Shown here piece by piece: positions 14,695 to 23,165 of a stretch of 64,000 bases of DNA. The notes beneath the pieces were generated by a model. It was not told where the DNA came from. It worked only from the letters and a program-made list of their open reading frames with translations, and ran no database searches. The stretch's first letter is position 1, and each line of letters opens with the position of its first letter. The position numbers and the translations under genes are program-made. This DNA comes from Agromyces laixinhei (GTDB lineage: Bacteria > Actinomycetota > Actinomycetes > Actinomycetales > Microbacteriaceae): NCBI RefSeq assembly GCF_006337065.1, contig NZ_CP040872.1, positions 2,108,001 to 2,172,000 of the forward strand. The letters run 5' to 3'.

Positions 14695-17600
14695 TCAGCG
14701 GAAGTCGCGCGATCGGTGCGGCGCCGACACGGTGAGGGGCTCGAATCGATCGGCGACGAGATTGGTGACTCCCTCGTGCGAGCGTTCGAGCATGCCCCGC
14801 ACGATCATCGCCGGAGCCTCGCGAGCGATGCGGCGATAGCGGTTCCAGACCCCGACGCCCGCAATGACGTTCAACGTGCCGGATTCGTCTTCGAGGTTGA
14901 GGAAGGTGATGCCGCTCGCCGTCGCGGGCCGTTGCCGGTGCGTGACCACCCCGCCCACTTCGATGCGCCGCCCCGACTCCGCCTGCTGCAGCAGGTCGAT
15001 GCGGATGACCCCGCGCTCGTCGAGCCGTTCGCGCACATGCCGGATCGGGTGGTCGTCGGGCGAGATGCCCGTGGCCCAGAGGTCGTAGACGACCTGCTCG
15101 GCCGGGCTCAGCATCGGCAGCAGCGGCGGCTGCACGACCACGACCGACCCCGCGAGGTACTCCTCGCGGTCGAGCGCTGCCTCACCCGCCATCCAGAGCG
15201 CCTCGCGCCGTTCGAGCCCGAAGCCGTCGAACGCGCCCGCCGCGGCGAGCGCCTCGAGCTGGGCGGCATCGAGCGCTCCGCGGCGCGAGACGTCGGCCAT
15301 GTCGCGGTACGGCCCGTGGGCCTCGCGTTCGGCGACGAGTCGTTCGGCGACGGCCCGGCCGATGGAGGAGACCTCGGCGAGCCCGAGCCGCACCGCGAAC
15401 GCGCCGTCACGGCGATGCTCGGCCCCTCGGTCGGGTTCGCGGCGATCGAAGGGGCCGACGGGCGGTTGCACGGGGTCGGCGCACGTCGCGAGGCCGGTGG
15501 GCGCGCGGCATCCGTCATCGTGGCCCGAGCCGGCACCTGCGTCGTCTGCGGCCTCGAGGCCCGCGTGCACTCCCGACCGCAGGATGTCGGGTCGCAGTAC
15601 TTCCACCCCATGTCGCCGCGCATCGGCGGTGAGCGTCTGCGGCGAGTAGAACCCCATGGGCTGGGCACGGAGCAGCGCCGCGAGGAACGCCGCCGGGTAG
15701 TGCAGTTTCAGCCACGAGCTCGCATAGACGAGCAGCCCGAAGCTGAGTGCATGGCTCTCGGCGAAGCCGAAGTTCGCGAAGGCCTCGATCTTCTCGTAGA
15801 TCGAGTCGGCCACTTCGCCCGTGATGCAGTTGCCGGCCATGCCCGTGTAGAGCTTCGCCTTCAGCCGCTCGATCTTCTCGATGCCGCGCTTGGAGCCCAT
15901 TGCCCGTCGCAGCAGATCGGCGTCGGCGGCACTGCAGTCGCCGACCGCGACCGCCATCTGCATGAGCTGTTCTTGGAAGAGCGGCACGCCGAGCGTGCGT
16001 TCGAGCACCGGTTCGAGCTTCGGATGCAGGTAGCTGACGGCCTCTTCGCCGGTGCGCCGGCGGATGTACGGATGCACCGCACCGCCCTGCACCGGGCCGG
16101 GGCGGATGAGCGCGATCTCGACGACGAGGTCGTAGAAGCACCGGGGCTTCAGTCGGGGGAGCGTGCCCATCTGCGCCCGGCTCTCGACCTGGAACACGCC
16201 GATCGAGTCGGCACGGCAGAGCATGTCGTAGACCGCCGCCTCCTCTTTCGGCAGGCTCGCGAGTTCCCACACCTCGCCCGTCGACTCGCGTACGAGGTCG
16301 AAGGTGTACTGCAGGGCAGCGAGCATGCCGAGGCCGAGCAGGTCGAACTTCACGAGACCCATCCATGCGCAGTCGTCTTTGTCCCACTGCACCACGGTGC
16401 GCTGTTCTTTGCGAGCGTGCTCGATCGGCACCACCTCGCCGACGGGCCGATCGGTGAGCACCATGCCGCCCGAGTGGATGCCGAGGTGACGCGGAAAGGT
16501 GAGGACCTGCCCAGCGAGCTCGACGACGGCGTCGGGGATGTCGTGGTCGTCGGTCTCGACGACGGCGCCCCAGCGCTCGACCTGCCGCGACCAGGCGTCT
16601 TGCTGACCGGTGGAGTAGCCGAGCGCCTTCGCCATGTCGCGCACCGCGACCTTCGGCCGGTAGCTGATGACGTTCGCGACCTGCGCCGCATTCTGGCGGC
16701 CGTACTTCGCGTAGACGTACTGGATGATCTCCTCCCGGCGATCGGAGTCGAAGTCGACATCGATATCGGGCTCCTCATCACGCAGCGCCGAGAGGAACCG
16801 CTCGAAGGGCAGCCGGTATCCGATCGAGTCGACCGCGGTGATGCGCAGTGCGTAGCAGACCGCCGAGTTCGCCGCCGAGCCACGACCCTGGCACAGGATG
16901 CCGCGACGCCGAGCCTCGGCCACGATGTCGTGGACGATCAGGAAGTAGCCCGGGAAGTCCTTCAGCTCGATGACGTCGAGCTCGCGTTCGAGTCGTTCGC
17001 GCACATGCTGCGGCACGCCGGGGTAGAGCTCCTCAGCCCCCTGCCAGACGAGCACCCGCAGCCAGCTCATCGGCGTGTGCCCCGCCGGCACCTCTTGCTT
17101 GGGCAACTTCGGGCGGGCGCTGCGCAGGGTGAAGGCGAGTTCATCGGCGAGTGCCACCGAGCGGGCGACGGCGCCCGGGTAGCGGGCGAACCGGGCGGCC
17201 ATCTCGGCACCGCTGCGCAGATGCAGCTGATCGGATGCCGGCAACCATCCGTCGAGCTCGTCGAGGCTGCGGCGGGCCCGCACCGCGGCGAGGGCAGCGG
17301 CGAGACGGTGCTCGGGCGGTGTGGCGTAATGCACGGCGTTCGTTGCGAGGAGCGGCAGGCCGGCGTGCTCGGCGAGCCCGGCGAGCACGTCGTTCGCCTG
17401 CTGGTCGAACGGATGCCCGTGGTCGAAGAGCTCGACGACGACGTTCTCGCGGCCGAAGAGCGCCGTGAGACGGTCGAGCTCCCGTGCAGCCGCATGCGCC
17501 CCGCCCTCGGCGAGCGCACGGCGCACGGCGCCCTTGCGGCACCCGGTCGGCACGACCCACTCGCCGTCGGCCCGTTCGGCGAGCTCTTCGATGGCGTACA

Positions 17601-18135
17601 CCGGTCGCCCCTTCTCGCCGCCCGCGAGCTGGCCGGCGGTGATCGCACCGGCCAGCCGGTGGTAACCCGCCTCGCGCCGGGCGAGCACGAGGAGGTGCTC
17701 GCCCTCGGGATCGGCGAAGCCGTTCTGCGGGCCCTGCAGTCCGAGTGAGAGTTCGGCGCCGAAGACCGTCTGCAGTTGGGGAAAGCTCTCTGCGGCCTCG
17801 GCGAAGTGCACGATGCCGTAGAAGCCGTCGTGGTCGGTGACGGCGAGCCCGGTGAGCCCGAGGCGCTGCGCCTCCTCGACGAGCTGTTCGGGCGAGGACG
17901 CACCGTCGAGGAAGCTGAAGTTCGAGTGCGCGTGCAGCTCGGCGTAGGGCACGATCGGCCCGGTCGGGGCCACGAGTCCCGCCGACGGGCGGTACGGATG
18001 GCGCTTCCGGCTCCACGCGGGCGAGTCGCCGCCGTCGCCGATGGTCTTCGGCGCGCCGGGCGCACCCGGCCGGCGCTCGTCGGAGAGCTTGCGTTCGAGT
18101 TCCGACCACGGGATGCCCGGATTGTTCCAGCCCAT
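14695..18135 (-). CDS. dnaE2: Error-prone DNA polymerase III alpha subunit DnaE2 (ImuC)
   Basis: 1,146-residue C-family polymerase. The PHP domain starts at about residue 60 (ELHAHSNFSFLDG). The catalytic palm has PDIDVDFDSDRREEI, with the two-Asp metal site, and the fingers follow with FQEQLMQMAVAVGDCS. Towards the C-terminus are a helix-hairpin-helix region (LDAAQLEALAAAGAFDGFG) and an OB fold (GITFLNLEDESG), ending SRDFR. Role: the polymerase that extends past lesions in SOS mutagenesis with ImuB and ImuA'. ATG at 18135 lies 16 bases after the imuB stop. The slightly short PHP/N-terminal lead (MGWNNPGIPWSELE) is typical of DnaE2. The last nine codons are part of a direct repeat. Confidence 0.93.
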   Translation of the reverse strand: MGWNNPGIPWSELERKLSDERRPGAPGAPKTIGDGGDSPAWSRKRHPYRPSAGLVAPTGPIVPYAELHAHSNFSFLDGASSPEQLVEEAQRLGLTGLAVTDHDGFYGIVHFAEAAESFPQLQTVFGAELSLGLQGPQNGFADPEGEHLLVLARREAGYHRLAGAITAGQLAGGEKGRPVYAIEELAERADGEWVVPTGCRKGAVRRALAEGGAHAAARELDRLTALFGRENVVVELFDHGHPFDQQANDVLAGLAEHAGLPLLATNAVHYATPPEHRLAAALAAVRARRSLDELDGWLPASDQLHLRSGAEMAARFARYPGAVARSVALADELAFTLRSARPKLPKQEVPAGHTPMSWLRVLVWQGAEELYPGVPQHVRERLERELDVIELKDFPGYFLIVHDIVAEARRRGILCQGRGSAANSAVCYALRITAVDSIGYRLPFERFLSALRDEEPDIDVDFDSDRREEIIQYVYAKYGRQNAAQVANVISYRPKVAVRDMAKALGYSTGQQDAWSRQVERWGAVVETDDHDIPDAVVELAGQVLTFPRHLGIHSGGMVLTDRPVGEVVPIEHARKEQRTVVQWDKDDCAWMGLVKFDLLGLGMLAALQYTFDLVRESTGEVWELASLPKEEAAVYDMLCRADSIGVFQVESRAQMGTLPRLKPRCFYDLVVEIALIRPGPVQGGAVHPYIRRRTGEEAVSYLHPKLEPVLERTLGVPLFQEQLMQMAVAVGDCSAADADLLRRAMGSKRGIEKIERLKAKLYTGMAGNCITGEVADSIYEKIEAFANFGFAESHALSFGLLVYASSWLKLHYPAAFLAALLRAQPMGFYSPQTLTADARRHGVEVLRPDILRSGVHAGLEAADDAGAGSGHDDGCRAPTGLATCADPVQPPVGPFDRREPDRGAEHRRDGAFAVRLGLAEVSSIGRAVAERLVAEREAHGPYRDMADVSRRGALDAAQLEALAAAGAFDGFGLERREALWMAGEAALDREEYLAGSVVVVQPPLLPMLSPAEQVVYDLWATGISPDDHPIRHVRERLDERGVIRIDLLQQAESGRRIEVGGVVTHRQRPATASGITFLNLEDESGTLNVIAGVGVWNRYRRIAREAPAMIVRGMLERSHEGVTNLVADRFEPLTVSAPHRSRDFR
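14701..14732. repeat. Direct repeat copy 2: authentic dnaE2 3' end
   Basis: These bases encode the end of DnaE2 (VSAPHRSRDF). They match 13347-13378 at 29 of 32 positions. With copy 1 they enclose a 1.35-kb segment holding only the MFS gene. Confidence 0.75.
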
Positions 18136-18151
18136 CAGCCCCGCCCCGCCA

Positions 18152-19741
18152 TCAGTCGTACCTCGCCTCTGCCCACCAGCCTTCGTCGTCGCGCACGAGG
18201 AGCCACGCGCAGCCCTCGTCGTCGACGATCTGGAAGCGGTGCACGCGCCTCGCGTGCTCGGCGTCCCACCAGCGTTCGACGACCGGCCAAGGGCCCGCCC
18301 AGGCCCGCACGGGCGTGGGGGCGGCGCCCGCGAGCGCGAAACGTTCGGGCTTCGCCGAGATCGCACCGCGGGCGTCGATCGTGACGACGGCACCGCCGGC
18401 GTCGAGCAGCCCGACCGGCCGGCGCTCGCGGAACACGCTCGCCGGGGCGAGCGCGGGCAGGCTGCCGGGCCACGGCGCGCTCTCGTCGCCGCGTTCGGGA
18501 GCCCGATCACCCCAGGGCACGAGCACCTGCCGGTCGGCGAGCATTCGCCCGCCGCCGATCACCGCAGTGACGACCGCGTCGTGGCCGAGCATGCTCTGCA
18601 CCCGGGTGAGCCCGTGATGCACGCGCTCGTCGGGCCCGCCGCCCCAGAGCCCCTCTTCATGGTTGCCGGTGGAGTCGATGCGCTCGGGCACGACGCGCAG
18701 TCGCACGATCGGCGAGGTGAGCGCCCTGTCGGCGGTGCCTGTGCCCTGCAGCTGCCAACGCACGCGATCGACGACGTCGGCGGGGGTGAACCAGCGCGGG
18801 TGCAACCAGCCGCGGCTCGAGTGCCCGCCTGCTTCGTCGTCGATCTCGATGCGGATGCCGGTGCACACGAGCCGCTTCGCCCGCATGCGCTCGATGAACT
18901 CGGAGGCATGCACCCGGAAGGCGAAGGCGAGCTGGTCGATGCGGTCGAGCGGCGGTTCGAACTCCTGCGCGACCTCGAACTCGGGCGGCGGGGTGCGTGC
19001 GAGCACCCTCGCCTGCTCGCGCCCGGCCGCCCGATCGTGCGCGAAGGCGCCCGCCGCGCCGAATCGGCGGCGCACGTCGGCCTCGGGCAGGGCCGCGAAC
19101 TCGCCGAGGGTGTGCACCCCGAGGCGGTTCAGCAGGGTTCGGGTACGGGCATCGACGACGAGTCCCACCGGCAGCGGGGCGATGAACGCAGCGGATGCCC
19201 CGGGCTCGACGATGCCCACCGGCGACTCGCCCGCAGCGTCGGCGATACCCGCAGCTCCGATCGCCCGGGCCGCCTGCTCGGCGGCGAACGGCCCGTCGGC
19301 GACTCCGACCCGCGCCCCGATCACCCCGAGTGCGGCGACGGTGCCGAGCAGGGCGCGTGCCGCGGCATCTTCACCGCCGTAGTAGCGGGCCGGACCCCGC
19401 GCCCGCATGGCGAGCGTGCCGGGGCGGACGAGCTGCACACCGGGCACCGTCTCTTCGACCCGCCGCACGACCGGCTCGAAGACGCGCACGTCGAGCGAGG
19501 CGTCGTAGTCGAGCAGGGTGAGTGCGGGGGAGCGGTACTGCGCTTCGCGGAGCTTCAGCCCGCGAACCACGCCGTCGCTGCGAGCCGCGGCCGAGCAGGC
19601 GAAGATCTGGCCGCCCTCGGTGAGGGCGACGGGTGCGGCCGGGTCGAGGCCCGATTCGCGGCACGCCGCGAACACGGGCCAGTCGGGGCACCAGAGCACG
19701 ATCGTGCGGGTGGGGTCGACGTGTACCGGGTCGACGGCCAT
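18152..19741 (-). CDS. imuB: ImuB, Y-family polymerase-like mutasome adaptor
   Basis: 529-residue Y-family-like protein without a full polymerase active site. In the SOS mutasome ImuB links DnaE2 and ImuA' to the beta clamp and does not itself polymerise. The N-terminus has TIVLWCPDWPVFAACRESG. A palm-like region (LKLREAQYRSPALTLLDYD) and a thumb/HhH region (LLNRLGVHTLGEFAALP) follow, then a little-finger-like part (QLAFAFRVHASEFIERM). The C-terminal 120 residues contain RAWAGPWPVVERWWD and RFQIVDDEG, characteristic of actinobacterial ImuB. The ATG at 19741 overlaps the imuA' stop by one base (TGATG), so the two are translationally coupled. Confidence 0.9.
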   Translation of the reverse strand: MAVDPVHVDPTRTIVLWCPDWPVFAACRESGLDPAAPVALTEGGQIFACSAAARSDGVVRGLKLREAQYRSPALTLLDYDASLDVRVFEPVVRRVEETVPGVQLVRPGTLAMRARGPARYYGGEDAAARALLGTVAALGVIGARVGVADGPFAAEQAARAIGAAGIADAAGESPVGIVEPGASAAFIAPLPVGLVVDARTRTLLNRLGVHTLGEFAALPEADVRRRFGAAGAFAHDRAAGREQARVLARTPPPEFEVAQEFEPPLDRIDQLAFAFRVHASEFIERMRAKRLVCTGIRIEIDDEAGGHSSRGWLHPRWFTPADVVDRVRWQLQGTGTADRALTSPIVRLRVVPERIDSTGNHEEGLWGGGPDERVHHGLTRVQSMLGHDAVVTAVIGGGRMLADRQVLVPWGDRAPERGDESAPWPGSLPALAPASVFRERRPVGLLDAGGAVVTIDARGAISAKPERFALAGAAPTPVRAWAGPWPVVERWWDAEHARRVHRFQIVDDEGCAWLLVRDDEGWWAEARYD

Positions 19742-20478
19742 CAGACGGCCCGCCGCACGTACTCGTCGAGTCGTACCGGCGCGTTCAGGGGCGCCGATGC
19801 GCCCTGGGGAACCGCTTCATCGGCAGCGACCCGGAACTCGAGGGAGCGCCCAGGCAACTGGAGCCGGGAGCGGCCGCGACGGCCGAACTCACCGCGACCG
19901 CCGGCCGAGACGACGACATCGCGGTCGCTGAGGTGCCCGTGCCCGAGTTCGAGCCCGTGCCACTGGCTCGCCTCGACGCCGACGCTCGCGTCGCTGCCCG
20001 GCCACCGACCGGCCACGAGCAGCACGGTGCCGCGCTGCCGGAGCCGTGCGGTCAACCGCGACGCCTCGGCGGGGGAGACCTGACCGACCGGGCGCACCGC
20101 GACCACCGGAATGACGTCGGCGAGTGCCGCGACCACGGTGAGCCATTGCCGCCCGGGGTCGGGCACGAGCGCGAGCCGTTCGAGGTCGATGCCGAACCGC
20201 GAGGCGGCCTCGACGCCGAACTCGGGCATGCCGGCGACCGCGACCCAGCGCCCGCTCGCCGAGGGGCCGGCCAGAAGCGCCATGAGCAGGGTCGTCGACC
20301 CCTCGACCGAGACGATCGTGCCCTCGCGGAGGCTGCCGCCGCCGGGCAGTACCTGCTCGAAGGCCGGATGCGTGGGCACGGTCTTCGAATCGAGCCGCGT
20401 CGCCTGCATGCCCCGAATGCGGGCCTGCAGTTCTTCGACCCGCGCCGGCACTTCGGCGGGGGTGAGGGGAGCGGTCAT
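19741..20478 (-). CDS. imuA': ImuA' , RecA-like component of the SOS mutasome
   Basis: 245-residue RecA-fold protein, the first gene of imuA'-imuB-dnaE2. The core has HPAFEQVLPGGGSLREGTIV, a degenerate P-loop-like VEGSTTLLMALLAG, then GRWVAVAGMPEFGVEAASRFG. It ends with a basic strand-rich tail (GRGEFGRRGRSRLQLPGR). Family role: accessory mutagenesis factor binding ImuB. ATG at 20478 is chosen because GAGGG lies just upstream; an in-frame ATG at 20490 is the alternative. A LexA box at 20495-20510 is 17 bases upstream. Beyond it the native promoter region is replaced by an IS1595-family insertion, so induction may be altered. Confidence 0.87.
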   Translation of the reverse strand: MTAPLTPAEVPARVEELQARIRGMQATRLDSKTVPTHPAFEQVLPGGGSLREGTIVSVEGSTTLLMALLAGPSASGRWVAVAGMPEFGVEAASRFGIDLERLALVPDPGRQWLTVVAALADVIPVVAVRPVGQVSPAEASRLTARLRQRGTVLLVAGRWPGSDASVGVEASQWHGLELGHGHLSDRDVVVSAGGRGEFGRRGRSRLQLPGRSLEFRVAADEAVPQGASAPLNAPVRLDEYVRRAV

Positions 20479-20494
20479 CGTCACCCTCATAGTT

Positions 20495-20510
20495 TCGAAC
20501 ACATGTTCTA
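20495..20510. promoter_or_regulatory. LexA/SOS box of imuA', truncated by an insertion
   Basis: TCGAACACATGTTCTA matches the actinobacterial SOS box TCGAAC-N4-GTTCGA at 11 of 12 specified positions. The mismatch is at the edge where the mobile element begins. Joining 20495-20508 to the bases after the insertion (22957 on) gives TCGAACACATGTTCGA, a perfect box, so the insertion split it. Confidence 0.8.
20502..20508. repeat. Target-site duplication, left copy (CATGTTC)
   Basis: CATGTTC here is repeated at 22950-22956 on the far side of the mobile unit. Extending to 8 bp gives one mismatch (A versus C). IS1595-family elements duplicate 8 bp. Confidence 0.6.
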
Positions 20511-20533
20511 GGTATCTGTCTAACTGAAGTAGG
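20507..20533. repeat. Left terminal inverted repeat of the IS
   Basis: 27 bases pairing with 21559-21585 at 25 positions. It abuts the LexA box and shares its last four bases with it. Confidence 0.8.
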
Positions 20534-20542
20534 CTTGGACTC

Positions 20543-21505
20543 ATGGCCGAGTCTGCGCATCCGGTGGGTGGTGTCGACTATCCGCGGACGTTCCAAGAGC
20601 TCCGCGAGTGGTTCCCGGATGATGCGGCGTGCCTGGCGTACCTCGCACGGTTGCGCTGGCCGGACGGGTTCGTCTGCCCGGAATGCAAGGGTCGCGAGTT
20701 CTGGCTCACCGGCGTTGGCCTGTGGATGTGCAGTGGCTGCTCGCGGCGCACATCGGTGACCGCGGGGACGATTTTCCATCGGACGCGGACCCCGCTGTCG
20801 ACGTGGTTCGCGGCGGTCTGGTTCGTCACGTCGCAGAAGAACGGGATGTCCGCACAGAGCCTGCAGCGGGTGCTCGGCTTGAAGTCTTACGAGACCGCGT
20901 GGGCGTGGATGCACAAGCTCCGCCGGGCGATGGTGCGGCCCGAACGGGACCTGCTCCACGGCGTCGTCGAAGTGGACGAGACCTTCGTCGGCGGCGTCAG
21001 TGGCGGGCACGCCGGGGCGAGCTCTGGCAAAGCCGTCGTAATGGTCGCGGTCGAAAAGCCCGGCCCGGGCCGCAAGCTCGGTCGGATCCGGCTCGGACTC
21101 GCCGACCGACCCGGCACTCTCGGACTCGTCACGTTCGCGCAGAACACCGTCGCGCAAGGCTCGACGATCCACACCGACGGCGCCCGGATGATGCGCCGGC
21201 TCGGCGAGCTTGGCTACACCCACGAGTACGCCACCGGCTACAACGCCCCCGACCCGACCGCAGTGCTGCCCGGCGTGCACCTGACCGCGTCTCTCCTGAG
21301 GCGGTGGCTGACGGGCACACTCCACTACGGCGTTGCCGAGCACCAGCTGCCCTACTACCTCGACGAGTTCACGTTCCGATTCAATCGTCGCGACGCGACC
21401 AGCCGGGGGCTGCTCTTCTACCGGCTGCTCCAGCAGGCTGTGCAGACCGACCCCCACCCACTCCAGGATCTCCTCGACCCCGATTCGAACCCCTACTTCA
21501 CCTAG
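20543..21505 (+). CDS. IS1595-family transposase (ISXO2-like)
   Basis: 320-residue transposase. An N-terminal zinc ribbon (CPEC about residue 50, CSGC about 70) is followed by a helix-turn-helix region (SAQSLQRVLGLKSYETAWAW). The ISXO2-like DDE-type domain has VVEVDETFVGG (first Asp), IHTDGAR (second Asp) and YYLDEFTFRFNRR (third acidic/Asn motif), all hallmark IS1595 motifs. No frameshift or stop is seen, so it may be active. Its last codons plus stop (CCTACTTCACCTAG) repeat exactly inside the right TIR 67 bases further on. It probably also acts, or acted, on the ends of the adjacent cassette, which are similar in sequence. Confidence 0.9.
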   Translation: MAESAHPVGGVDYPRTFQELREWFPDDAACLAYLARLRWPDGFVCPECKGREFWLTGVGLWMCSGCSRRTSVTAGTIFHRTRTPLSTWFAAVWFVTSQKNGMSAQSLQRVLGLKSYETAWAWMHKLRRAMVRPERDLLHGVVEVDETFVGGVSGGHAGASSGKAVVMVAVEKPGPGRKLGRIRLGLADRPGTLGLVTFAQNTVAQGSTIHTDGARMMRRLGELGYTHEYATGYNAPDPTAVLPGVHLTASLLRRWLTGTLHYGVAEHQLPYYLDEFTFRFNRRDATSRGLLFYRLLQQAVQTDPHPLQDLLDPDSNPYFT

Positions 21506-21558
21506 GCTCGCGAGACCGGCGTTGACGAGGGTCTGAACCGATGAAAAGCCAGTCAATC

Positions 21559-21585
21559 CCTACTTCACCTAGACAGATACCTAGA
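21559..21585. repeat. Right terminal inverted repeat of the IS
   Basis: Complement of 20507-20533 with two mismatches. The inner 15 bases (from 21558) are an exact direct repeat of 21491-21505, the end of the transposase gene. Confidence 0.8.
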
Positions 21586-21849
21586 CCACAAGTTCTGGGT
21601 ATTTGCTTGAGTGAAGCCCGGCGGGCGCATGGCGCAGAATTCCATCCGAACGGCGAGTTCCGGCACGCGATATTCGAACTGCGAACCAGGCTCGAACCCA
21701 AGGATCGGCTTGCGGGCGCCGCAATATACGTCGTGAAGGAAGTCGCAGTGCACGCGGTGGTAGAACTCGCTCCTCTGTGCGTCGTGGACGTGGCAGGCGT
21801 GCAGCCGGTACCCTTCTGCCTGTGAAGTAGGACCCGAGAACCGCCACAG
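21565..21849 (-). other. Open antisense frame, possible gene remnant at the cassette left end
   Basis: The minus-strand frame is open for 95 codons between a TAA at 21850-21852 and the stop at 21565. It reads like protein in its middle (HACHVHDAQRSEFYHR, then CDFLHDVYCGARKPILGFEP), with six Cys/His clusters that could bind metal. There is no ATG near its beginning, and its 3' end runs into the IS ends. I recognise no family. It may be the truncated tail of a former passenger gene, or chance. The 423 bases between the transposase and nucleotidyltransferase genes otherwise hold only the IS ends. Confidence 0.25.
21595..21616. repeat. Left terminal repeat of the cassette
   Basis: 18 of 22 matches to the complement of 22927-22948. 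The stretch from 21587 also aligns directly with the outer left end of the complete IS (20500 onward), so it is a second, diverged left end. Confidence 0.6.
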
Positions 21850-21928
21850 TTATGCCGTTGAGCCCCCGCTCCGGCATTTCCTGACAAGCCCGCTCTCGCC
21901 CGACCTCACTCACCAGGAGCCGAACTTC

Positions 21929-22687
21929 ATGCTCGAATCGGACACCGCCTTCCTCGACGCCATCGCCGATGCCCTCGCAGCCCTGCCGGGCGTGCACGCC
22001 GTGACACTCGGCGGCTCTCGTGCGCTGGGGACGAACACCCCGGACAGCGATTGGGATCTGTCCGTCTACTACCGCGACGGGTTCACTCCCGACCATCTCC
22101 GTGCCGTCGGCTGGACCGGAGAAGTCTCTGAGCTCGGAGCCTGGGGCGGAGGCGTCTTCAATGGAGGGGCATGGCTTCAGATCGACGGGCGGAAGGTCGA
22201 CATCCACTACCGCGACCTGGCGGTCGTCAACCGAGAGCTGGCCGAGGCCGTGCAGGGCCGGTTCCATTGGGAGCCACTGATGTTCCACCTCGCCGGCATC
22301 CCCAGCTACCTGCTGCTGGCCGAACTCGCGTCGAGCCGACAGCTGCGCGGCGACGCACTCCCGCGCCCGGCGTTCCCGGAACCGTTGCGAGACTCCGCAT
22401 CACGCATGTGGCGGTCGAACGCCGCCCTCACTCTGAATTACGCACAGAACGGTTATGCCGACCGCAGCCAGCTGACGGAGACCGCTGGCGCCCTGGCGAC
22501 CGCGGCGATGCAGACCGCGCACGCGGTCCTCGCCGAGCGCGGCGAATGGGTCACCAACGAGAAGCGCCTCCTTGCCCGCGCAGGGCTGCGCCGGATGGAC
22601 GAGATCATCGCGAACCTCAGCACAAGCGCCACGTCACTGACCGAAGGCGTCCGTGCCGCACGAGAGCTATGCCAGTACACCCGATGA
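21929..22687 (+). CDS. Nucleotidyltransferase-domain protein (cassette passenger)
   Basis: 252 residues. The N-terminal polymerase-beta-like nucleotidyltransferase fold has GGSRALGTNTPDSDWDL near residue 28, that is GSxA with the DxD metal pair. A third strand Asp is in QIDGRKVDIHYRDL. The C-terminal half is helical (ALTLNYAQNGYADRSQL; EKRLLARAGLRRMDEII), as in antibiotic nucleotidyltransferases and related substrate-binding domains. It may transfer AMP to a small molecule such as an aminoglycoside or lincosamide, but the substrate cannot be read from sequence. CAGGAG at 21911-21916 serves the ATG at 21929. As the only clear gene in a transposase-less IS-ended cassette, it is the likely selected cargo. 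Confidence 0.75.
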   Translation: MLESDTAFLDAIADALAALPGVHAVTLGGSRALGTNTPDSDWDLSVYYRDGFTPDHLRAVGWTGEVSELGAWGGGVFNGGAWLQIDGRKVDIHYRDLAVVNRELAEAVQGRFHWEPLMFHLAGIPSYLLLAELASSRQLRGDALPRPAFPEPLRDSASRMWRSNAALTLNYAQNGYADRSQLTETAGALATAAMQTAHAVLAERGEWVTNEKRLLARAGLRRMDEIIANLSTSATSLTEGVRAARELCQYTR

Positions 22688-22748
22688 CTTGATCATGGGT
22701 GGGGTCCCTGGCAGTCGGTGGGGCACCGGCTGAGATCGGTGAGGGTCG

Positions 22749-22799
22749 AGCACCGGCCACCTCGGTGCTGCTGAGAGCCGGTCTCGGGAGGACCGAGAC
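22749..22799. terminator. Two tandem stem-loops after the nucleotidyltransferase gene
   Basis: AGCACCG and CGGTGCT (22749-22769) pair perfectly around 7 bases. GTCTCGG and CCGAGAC (22781-22799) pair around 5 bases, extendable by CCGG with one bulge. They start 62 bases after the stop and could terminate the cassette transcript. No gene is seen in 22688-22926. Confidence 0.4.
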
Positions 22800-22926
22800 G
22801 CCGGCCCTGCCGGATTCCCGTATGCCCCGCCCGATAACTGCTCGGTGAAGGCCACTAAACGCTACGCTCAGCCCCTCACCCACCCCGCGGGTCAGGCAGC
22901 CCTCTACGGCGACGATTGGGCGACGG

Positions 22927-22948
22927 CTACACCTAAGCAGATACCCAG
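22927..22948. repeat. Right terminal repeat of the cassette
   Basis: Inverted relative to 21595-21616 (18/22). It is followed by GC-CATGTTC, the second copy of the target sequence. Confidence 0.6.
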
Positions 22949-22949
22949 C

Positions 22950-22956
22950 CATGTTC
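22950..22956. repeat. Target-site duplication, right copy (CATGTTC)
   Basis: Matches 20502-20508. The following GAAT completes the native LexA box when the insertion is removed. Confidence 0.6.
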
Positions 22957-23039
22957 GAATATGCAAGTCGGCCGTGCCGACCGTCCGCAACATCCGATGG
23001 GCGTCGAGGCGCTCGTCGGATGAGCCCCTGAACAGCGAA

Positions 23040-23068
23040 AAGGCCGGATCAGAAACTGATCCGGCCTT
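23040..23068. terminator. Terminator of tRNA-Leu
   Basis: AAGGCCGGATCAG-AAA-CTGATCCGGCCTT is a perfect 13-bp stem with a 3-base loop, 14 bases past the tRNA 3' end on the minus strand. It can also stop plus-strand transcription leaving the mobile unit. Confidence 0.8.
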
Positions 23069-23081
23069 CTCGACACCAGCG

Positions 23082-23165
23082 TGCGCGAGGGGGGACTTGA
23101 ACCCCCACGCCCGTTAGGGCACTAGCACCTCAAGCTAGCGCGTCTGCCATTTCCGCCACCCGCGC
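23082..23165 (-). tRNA. tRNA-Leu (anticodon GAG)
   Basis: 84 bases on the minus strand fold as a class II tRNA. The acceptor stem GCGCGGG/CTCGCGC has one G-T pair. The anticodon stem CTAGC/GCTAG encloses loop TTGAGGT (anticodon GAG). The variable arm is long (TGCCCTAACGGGC), and the T arm is GGGGGTTCAAGTCCCCC. The discriminator is A, as required for leucine. CCA is not encoded. It reads CUC (and CUU). A possible -10 TAATGT lies about 42 bases upstream of the 5' end. Confidence 0.93.

Follow-up and report, generated by a model that had tools for sequence, protein, structure and literature searches.

Insertion sequences of an IS1595 lineage that probably prefer host LexA operators as targets

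Insertion sequences (ISs) that target the binding site of a host protein are known from the ISAjo2/IS1202 family, found at dif/pdif sites (PMC10132070), and a LexA-controlled transposase promoter has been demonstrated for ISCR (PMC13393415). Here we describe a locus of Agromyces laixinhei that recalls both. In a 64,000-nt stretch of its genome (contig NZ_CP040872.1, positions 2,108,001–2,172,000; hereafter the window), two IS1595-type elements, one with a transposase (element A) and one without (element B), lie in tandem within a LexA operator, the SOS box upstream of the mutagenesis gene imuA′. As the best explanation of the data as a whole, we propose targeted transposition into this site by an IS1595 lineage that prefers host LexA operators, a reading to which we give a probability of roughly 0.8.

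The likeness to each described system is partial. Element A shares with the IS1595 family the zinc-ribbon and IS1595 DDE domains, the inverted ends and the 8-bp duplication, whereas the account of the family member ISApl4 describes duplications that are preferably A/T-rich (PMC12561309) and not a LexA operator as here. ISAjo2/IS1202 elements, as described, use a transposase of another family, make a 5-bp duplication and lie 5 bp from the XerC site, whereas here the operator centre is hit (PMC10132070). LexA control of the transposase promoter is suspected in the present lineage; the abstract on ISCR describes no operator targeting, whereas in the present case the target site itself would supply the operator (PMC13393415). 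ISCsp2, an IS1595-like element so named in plasmid records, belongs to the gamma/beta-proteobacterial group discussed below, and its copy on a Diaphorobacter plasmid lies in ATACTGT[ACAAATGC]ACAGTAT. Among the titles and abstracts listed in searches of open-access literature on this question, we found no description of LexA-operator targeting by ISs; an earlier account in subscription papers is possible.

Two elements in the imuA′ SOS box

The left flank of the elements (20495–20510) reads TCGAACACATGTTCTA, and host DNA restarts at 22955 with TCGAAT. Joining the flanks gives TCGAACACATGTTCGA, 16 bp upstream of the imuA′ start, a perfect match to TCGAAC-N4-GTTCGA, which we take to be the actinobacterial SOS-box motif. 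The one-contig 3.44-Mb genome now holds 0 perfect SOS boxes, and the joined imuA′ box would be its only one. A preliminary description of the window, made from the sequence alone, had already given these junction bases, the split box, the match of the left remnant at 11 of 12 specified positions and the imuA′–imuB–dnaE2 operon; all were borne out, the operon by the profile matches listed below. Its target duplication, the 7-bp CATGTTC at 20502–20508 and 22950–22956, has to be replaced by the 8-bp ACACATGT at 20499–20506, the other copies of which have decayed. Features of the locus, in window positions:

14698–18510, minus strand: dnaE2, error-prone DNA polymerase (NCBIfam NF004225, 1434.9 bits)
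18152–19741, minus strand: imuB-type Y-family polymerase-like gene (Pfam IMS, 33.7 bits)
19741–20478, minus strand: imuA′ (NCBIfam NF058630, 175.8 bits), its start set by comparison with relatives
20495–20510: left remnant of the LexA box, with 11 of 12 specified positions kept
20499–20506: left copy of the 8-bp target duplication, ACACATGT, equal to the box centre (empty site in relatives)
20507–21585, plus strand: element A, IS1595-type IS with ends TCTAGGTATCTGTCTA
20530–20535, plus strand: TAGGCT, a −10-like TANNNT of putative function at offset 23 from the left end of element A
20543–21505, plus strand: IS1595 transposase, 320 amino acids (PF12760, 49.5 bits; PF12762, 74.3 bits; NF033547, 173.5 bits; all above cut-offs)
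21586–21593: 8 bp separating elements A and B, CCACAAGT, read as a decayed ACACATGT copy (6 of 8 bases)
21594–22948, plus strand: element B, without a transposase, with related but decayed ends
21929–22687, plus strand: passenger gene of element B, nucleotidyltransferase domain (PF01909, 29 bits, cut-off 21)
22949–22954: right, shortened copy of the duplication, CCATGT
22955–22958: TCGA, right outer arm of the original box (junction bases and empty site in relatives)
22961–22966, minus strand: displaced −35-like motif TTGCAT of the putative imuA′ promoter (TTGCC in most relatives)

The uninterrupted site is found in relatives. Our search for imuA′ covered 60 genomes including that of A. laixinhei, 45 of which had a match, and 30 loci were read, the window and 29 others of the same genus. 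A box at 0–1 mismatch stands upstream of imuA′ in all 29 relatives (23 perfect, six at one mismatch); the split copy in the window counts as a one-mismatch row and is kept out of the 29. As background, 320-bp stretches drawn at random from these loci (n = 1,406) gave 0 boxes without mismatch and 51 at one. In the closest relative, G018 (imuA′ 94% identical), an uninterrupted TCGAACATGTGTTCGA on the imuA′ strand equals the joined window box, and the upstream sequence GGACAGTCGGC...CGACTTGCCGTAT matches GGACGGTCGGC...CGACTTGCATAT beyond the elements in the window. In 25 of the 29 relatives, the best box has a TTG(C/A)(C/G) motif upstream at a distance of at most 12 bp. The box thus predates the elements, and the putative −35 region has been displaced by 2,442 bp of element DNA. 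Comparison with related genomes, which the preliminary description proposed as a check, found the empty site and supports its claim that transposition hit the imuA′ operator.

The transposase of element A has both the zinc ribbon and the ISXO2/IS1595 DDE domain that serve as criteria for the IS1595 family, in agreement with the identity first assigned to it, and is the sole match to itself in its own genome (E ≤ 0.001). Both ends of element A match each other, beginning TCTAGGTATCTGTCTA, and the 8-mers at the element ends are ACACATGT, CCACAAGT and the shortened CCATGT, the duplication being undecayed only at its left copy. The preliminary description took the unit to be nested. This arrangement was rejected, as elements A and B lie side by side, each with its own ends, 8 bp apart. 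A second element end directly past an 8-mer is also present in loci L018 and L026. In L026, the transposase element is directly adjoined on its left by a small element of roughly 150 bp that lacks a transposase gene, has matching ends and carries the 8-mer ACAGATGT at each edge; this small element resembles a miniature relative.

Several further observations concern the cargo and the surroundings of these elements. Over about 650 bp, the element B passenger gene shares 72% identity with part of a Nocardia farcinica record, and the passenger protein scored far below the cut-off of the MntA model. Extra genes also lie between the transposase and the right end in five actinobacterial elements (L009, L020, L024, L190 and L017), whose cargo comprises a methyltransferase, a rhodanese-domain protein, an EamA transporter with a TetR regulator, an Imm8 immunity protein and a Mutator-family transposase. 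Beyond the displaced −35-like motif, a terminator-like 17-bp inverted repeat (94%, 3-bp loop; 23036–23072) adjoins tRNA-Leu(GAG) at 23081–23165. SOS-box-like sites are in excess in this DNA: the whole genome holds 71 sites at no more than 1 mismatch from the box against 3 for a reversed control pattern, and the window holds 22 at no more than 2 mismatches against 4.7 expected. Codon usage is one guess for this excess.

Targets across the lineage

Comparison with other members of the lineage indicates that the position of the window elements is one instance of a wider pattern. We collected 325 relatives of the transposase in genome contigs and kept the best 80, adding further copies from whole genomes and plasmids. 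For every row, the better-fitting copy of the duplication was used for scoring against the actinobacterial box TCGAAC-N4-GTTCGA (12 positions) or the gamma/beta-proteobacterial box CTGT-N8-ACAG (8 positions). First, the actinobacterial target is TCGA[ACNNNNGT]TCGA, with the bracketed part duplicated: 24 of 30 rows lie within 2 mismatches (0 in 5, 1 in 13, 2 in 6, 3 in 4 and 5 in 2 rows), and 200,000 random positions of the same loci gave 0.016% at 2 mismatches and none lower. The window counts among the rows at 3 mismatches owing to its decayed right side. Second, Shewanella and Vibrio relatives occupy the Escherichia coli-type operator CTGT[N8]ACAG. Here 18 of 29 gamma/beta rows lie within 1 mismatch (0 in 12, 1 in 6, 2 in 6, 3 in 2 and 5–6 in 3 rows), and 0.02% of random positions are at 1 mismatch and none at 0. 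An exact 8-bp duplication is present in 22 of the 30 actinobacterial and 27 of the 29 gamma/beta rows. The preliminary description treated the SOS-box site as incidental; these comparisons point instead to LexA operators as the preferred target of the lineage.

G609, of the Shewanella family, has seven copies, five of which carry 100% identical transposases at different sites, three of them in perfect boxes and the other two at 1 and 2 mismatches; the sixth is at 6 mismatches and the seventh has no readable right end. Three copies in G823 and G864 lie in CTGT[N8]ACAG with 0, 0 and 1 mismatches. A prediction set beforehand was that at least 70% of copies in two further families would lie within 2 mismatches; the new copies with both ends readable were few (n = 2), at 0 and 1 mismatches. 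Together, independent insertions share one kind of target beyond chance, as expected of a target-specific IS, and the target, its register and the tandem structure are supported by comparison.

In a tree of 90 transposases, the 30 actinobacterial sequences (one from a metagenome-assembled genome labelled Acidobacteria) and the 11 gamma/beta sequences fall together on one side, with support of 99/95 (unrooted), and the 49 others on the opposite side; a second tree of 51 rows gave the same side at 100/99. As controls we used 25 loci with readable ends outside both groups and four copies from genome G753, which stands beside the gamma group in the 51-row tree on a very long branch and in an unsure place. 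Of the 29 controls, one lies within 2 mismatches of the gamma box and none within 4 of the actinobacterial box; the control insertions show an A/T edge, their duplications having T..A at the ends. The viral contig L161 encodes a transposase identical to that of the Sphaerochaeta genome L059, outside both box-targeting groups in the 90-row tree. Scans of viral contigs gave no relative in one and one distant relative in the other.

Genes facing the insertions include members of the SOS response. lexA faces the element of L192 (222.7 bits, cut-off 110.95), dinB that of L168 (464.3 bits), and a umuD-like open reading frame (ORF) of 73 amino acids, below cut-off, that of L165. imuA′ faces both the window element and L008, and since it lies on opposite sides of the element in the two loci, these insertions are independent. 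Integron integrases face L120, L121, L123 and L172, although the flanks of L120 (Vibrio) resemble those of L123 (Shewanella), so that both may stem from one event. An HNH gene just below cut-off faces L033 and an AlkB-like 2OG oxygenase faces L024. Nine DUF222 genes, whose products are presumably of the 13E12 kind, face L002, L010, L011, L012, L013, L014, L016, L217 and L219. Integron integrases are described as LexA-controlled (PMC3108266), and the reported LexA regulon of Mycobacterium tuberculosis includes 13E12-family genes (PMC5005354, PMC4181829). Elsewhere the facing gene encodes EF-P, a RibD-like protein or a primase-polymerase, or belongs to no family; the outward-ORF method is crude in G+C-rich DNA, and several ORFs gave no family.

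Plasmid-borne relatives were also found. On the Achromobacter plasmid of L216, the relative of ISCsp2 adjoins a gene annotated as an SOS response-associated peptidase. For the Enterobacter element L187, 1 of 228 matching plasmid records covers 80% of the query, namely its own; the other 59 of the 60 listed match over 57 bp only and are mostly annotated as the ISL3-type ISPpu12, inside which the L187 copy sits. Among 5,426 E. coli genomes, 23 match L187 and none has a place covering 80% of it; the match is 57 bp in all 20 among the matches listed.

Some rows were left out of the target counts: L025 (contig end); L028, L114, L118 and L029 (truncated or no ends seen, the script finding no element ends in L118); the fragment L157; repeats among L134–L155, L159, L160 and L064, L068–L070; L164, L166, L167, L171, L181, L130 and L133, with an end missing or not located, of which L164, L166, L167, L171 and L181 gave poor values when computed; and L189, L213, L215 and L216, with one end or the duplication altered, whose readable sides show CTGT or ACAG halves. 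L193 and L195–L197 were moved to the control set, the more distant L115–L117, L119, L156 and L158 were left unscored, and other loci gave no clean ends.

Competing explanations

Several observations weigh against a preference for LexA operators. Six of the 30 actinobacterial rows, one of them the decayed window row, lie at 3–5 mismatches and 11 of the 29 gamma/beta rows at 2–6; eight and two rows, respectively, have no exact duplication. G552, with thirteen copies of which eleven could be scored, has two at 1 mismatch, none perfect and the rest at 2–6. G753, although beside the gamma group, has no box at any of its four copies. L218 offers one end only, with a misfitting outer arm, and the left side of the fragment L157 is no box. 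Last, a recognized or likely SOS gene was found at 13 of the 32 actinobacterial insertions and at 7 of the 29 in the gamma/beta group, the rest being other genes, ORFs that could not be named or sites left unsearched.

If targeting is real, the transposase could find operators by contacting bound LexA. In favour of this, the two sister groups use the operators of their own hosts in the same register, so that no change of DNA specificity would be needed, and a comparable idea has been put forward for a transposase that may contact dif-bound XerC (PMC10132070). The targets in G552 speak for a different mechanism. Retention of half-site bases among its poorer targets is 0.86 for T, 0.77 for G and 0.50 for C; imperfect targets thus keep T and G and lose C, including GTGT...ACAC in L180, whereas LexA requires the C of the half-site. 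This pattern points to the transposase itself reading the target. Moreover, the duplicated 8 bp are the operator centre and the joining points lie 4 bp inside the outer ends of the operator, where bound LexA would be expected to cover them. Guidance by LexA is a possibility that we entertain only tentatively, and we lean towards a transposase that reads the operator sequence directly. The most far-reaching version, in which the lineage tracks host LexA, needs no new specificity across phyla, gains LexA control, makes jumping part of the damage response and rewires the promoters of lexA, dinB, integron integrases and the mutasome, seems unlikely as a whole.

The elements might instead favour a 16-bp palindrome that merely resembles LexA boxes, SOS genes being hit by coincidence. 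TCGA is common in these genomes, as the 71 near-matches against 3 for the reversed pattern illustrate, and the control relatives show a weakly symmetric edge too. Yet each group matches the operator of its own hosts, and these operators differ; the genes facing the sites, moreover, include lexA, dinB, integron integrase, imuA′ and DUF222 genes. A coincidence is thus improbable. Random insertion with survival only in operators, as harmless places, is very improbable: intergenic operators are plausible safe sites and G552 also has copies far from boxes, but survival alone would not fix the register, and in most clean copies the duplicated bases coincide exactly with the centre of the box, whereas control relatives keep ordinary targets. 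Boxes borne by the element itself as LexA sites at both ends would account for the flanking of both ends in many copies, the palindrome making direct and inverted repeats look alike, but were rejected as barely credible given the uninterrupted boxes at imuA′ in relatives, the different box centres of identical-transposase copies and non-palindromic duplications such as ACATACAT and ATGTATGT.

On the preferred reading, an element inserting into a host SOS box would duplicate its central 8 bp, giving TCGA[ACNNNNGT]TCGA in Actinobacteria and CTGT[N8]ACAG in gamma/beta-proteobacteria. Elements A and B, one with the transposase and the other with the passenger gene, would share one box in tandem, the second insertion having used the box that remained next to the first element.

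Regulation and significance

Insertion beside an operator may also bear on expression of the transposase. In 27 of 30 actinobacterial elements a TANNNT motif stands at offset 23 (23 elements) or 24 (four elements), counted from the left end; none of the 29 controls has it at offset 23–24. The motif shortly precedes the start codon in the rows displayed. A −35 element at the usual spacing from TANNNT would fall at the junction, so that the operator would adjoin or overlie it and LexA bound to the box could silence the transposase until DNA is damaged. In the window, the left side retains an intact GAAC-N4-GTTC core. Fourteen of 29 elements begin with TC, which rebuilds a half-site, and the terminal TC...GA of many actinobacterial elements would restore the core. 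The left core is nevertheless intact in only 9 of the 29 other elements, and the gamma ends (AAGG, ATGG, ACGG) do not restore ACAG; self-installed LexA control would therefore be limited to part of the lineage. In actinobacterial members, the transposase promoter probably comes to lie next to the operator, and LexA may control it in some of them.

At imuA′, the left remnant may still bind LexA. Rewired control of the gene is plausible because the conserved TTGCC-type −35 region has been displaced; with this region separated from imuA′, induction of the mutagenic polymerase is probably lowered or re-routed. At this one locus, the duplication copy beside imuA′ is intact and the other two are decayed, which would fit selection on the operator.

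If the preference holds, mobile DNA would be coupled directly to the damage response through transposons that target a regulatory operator of the host. The acquisition of target specificity by a DDE transposase, a question of long standing, would become directly testable with two sister groups that prefer two different operators in the same register. Altered control of lexA, mutagenic polymerases and integron integrases would mean altered stress mutability and gene capture, and some elements could time their own movement by the captured operator.

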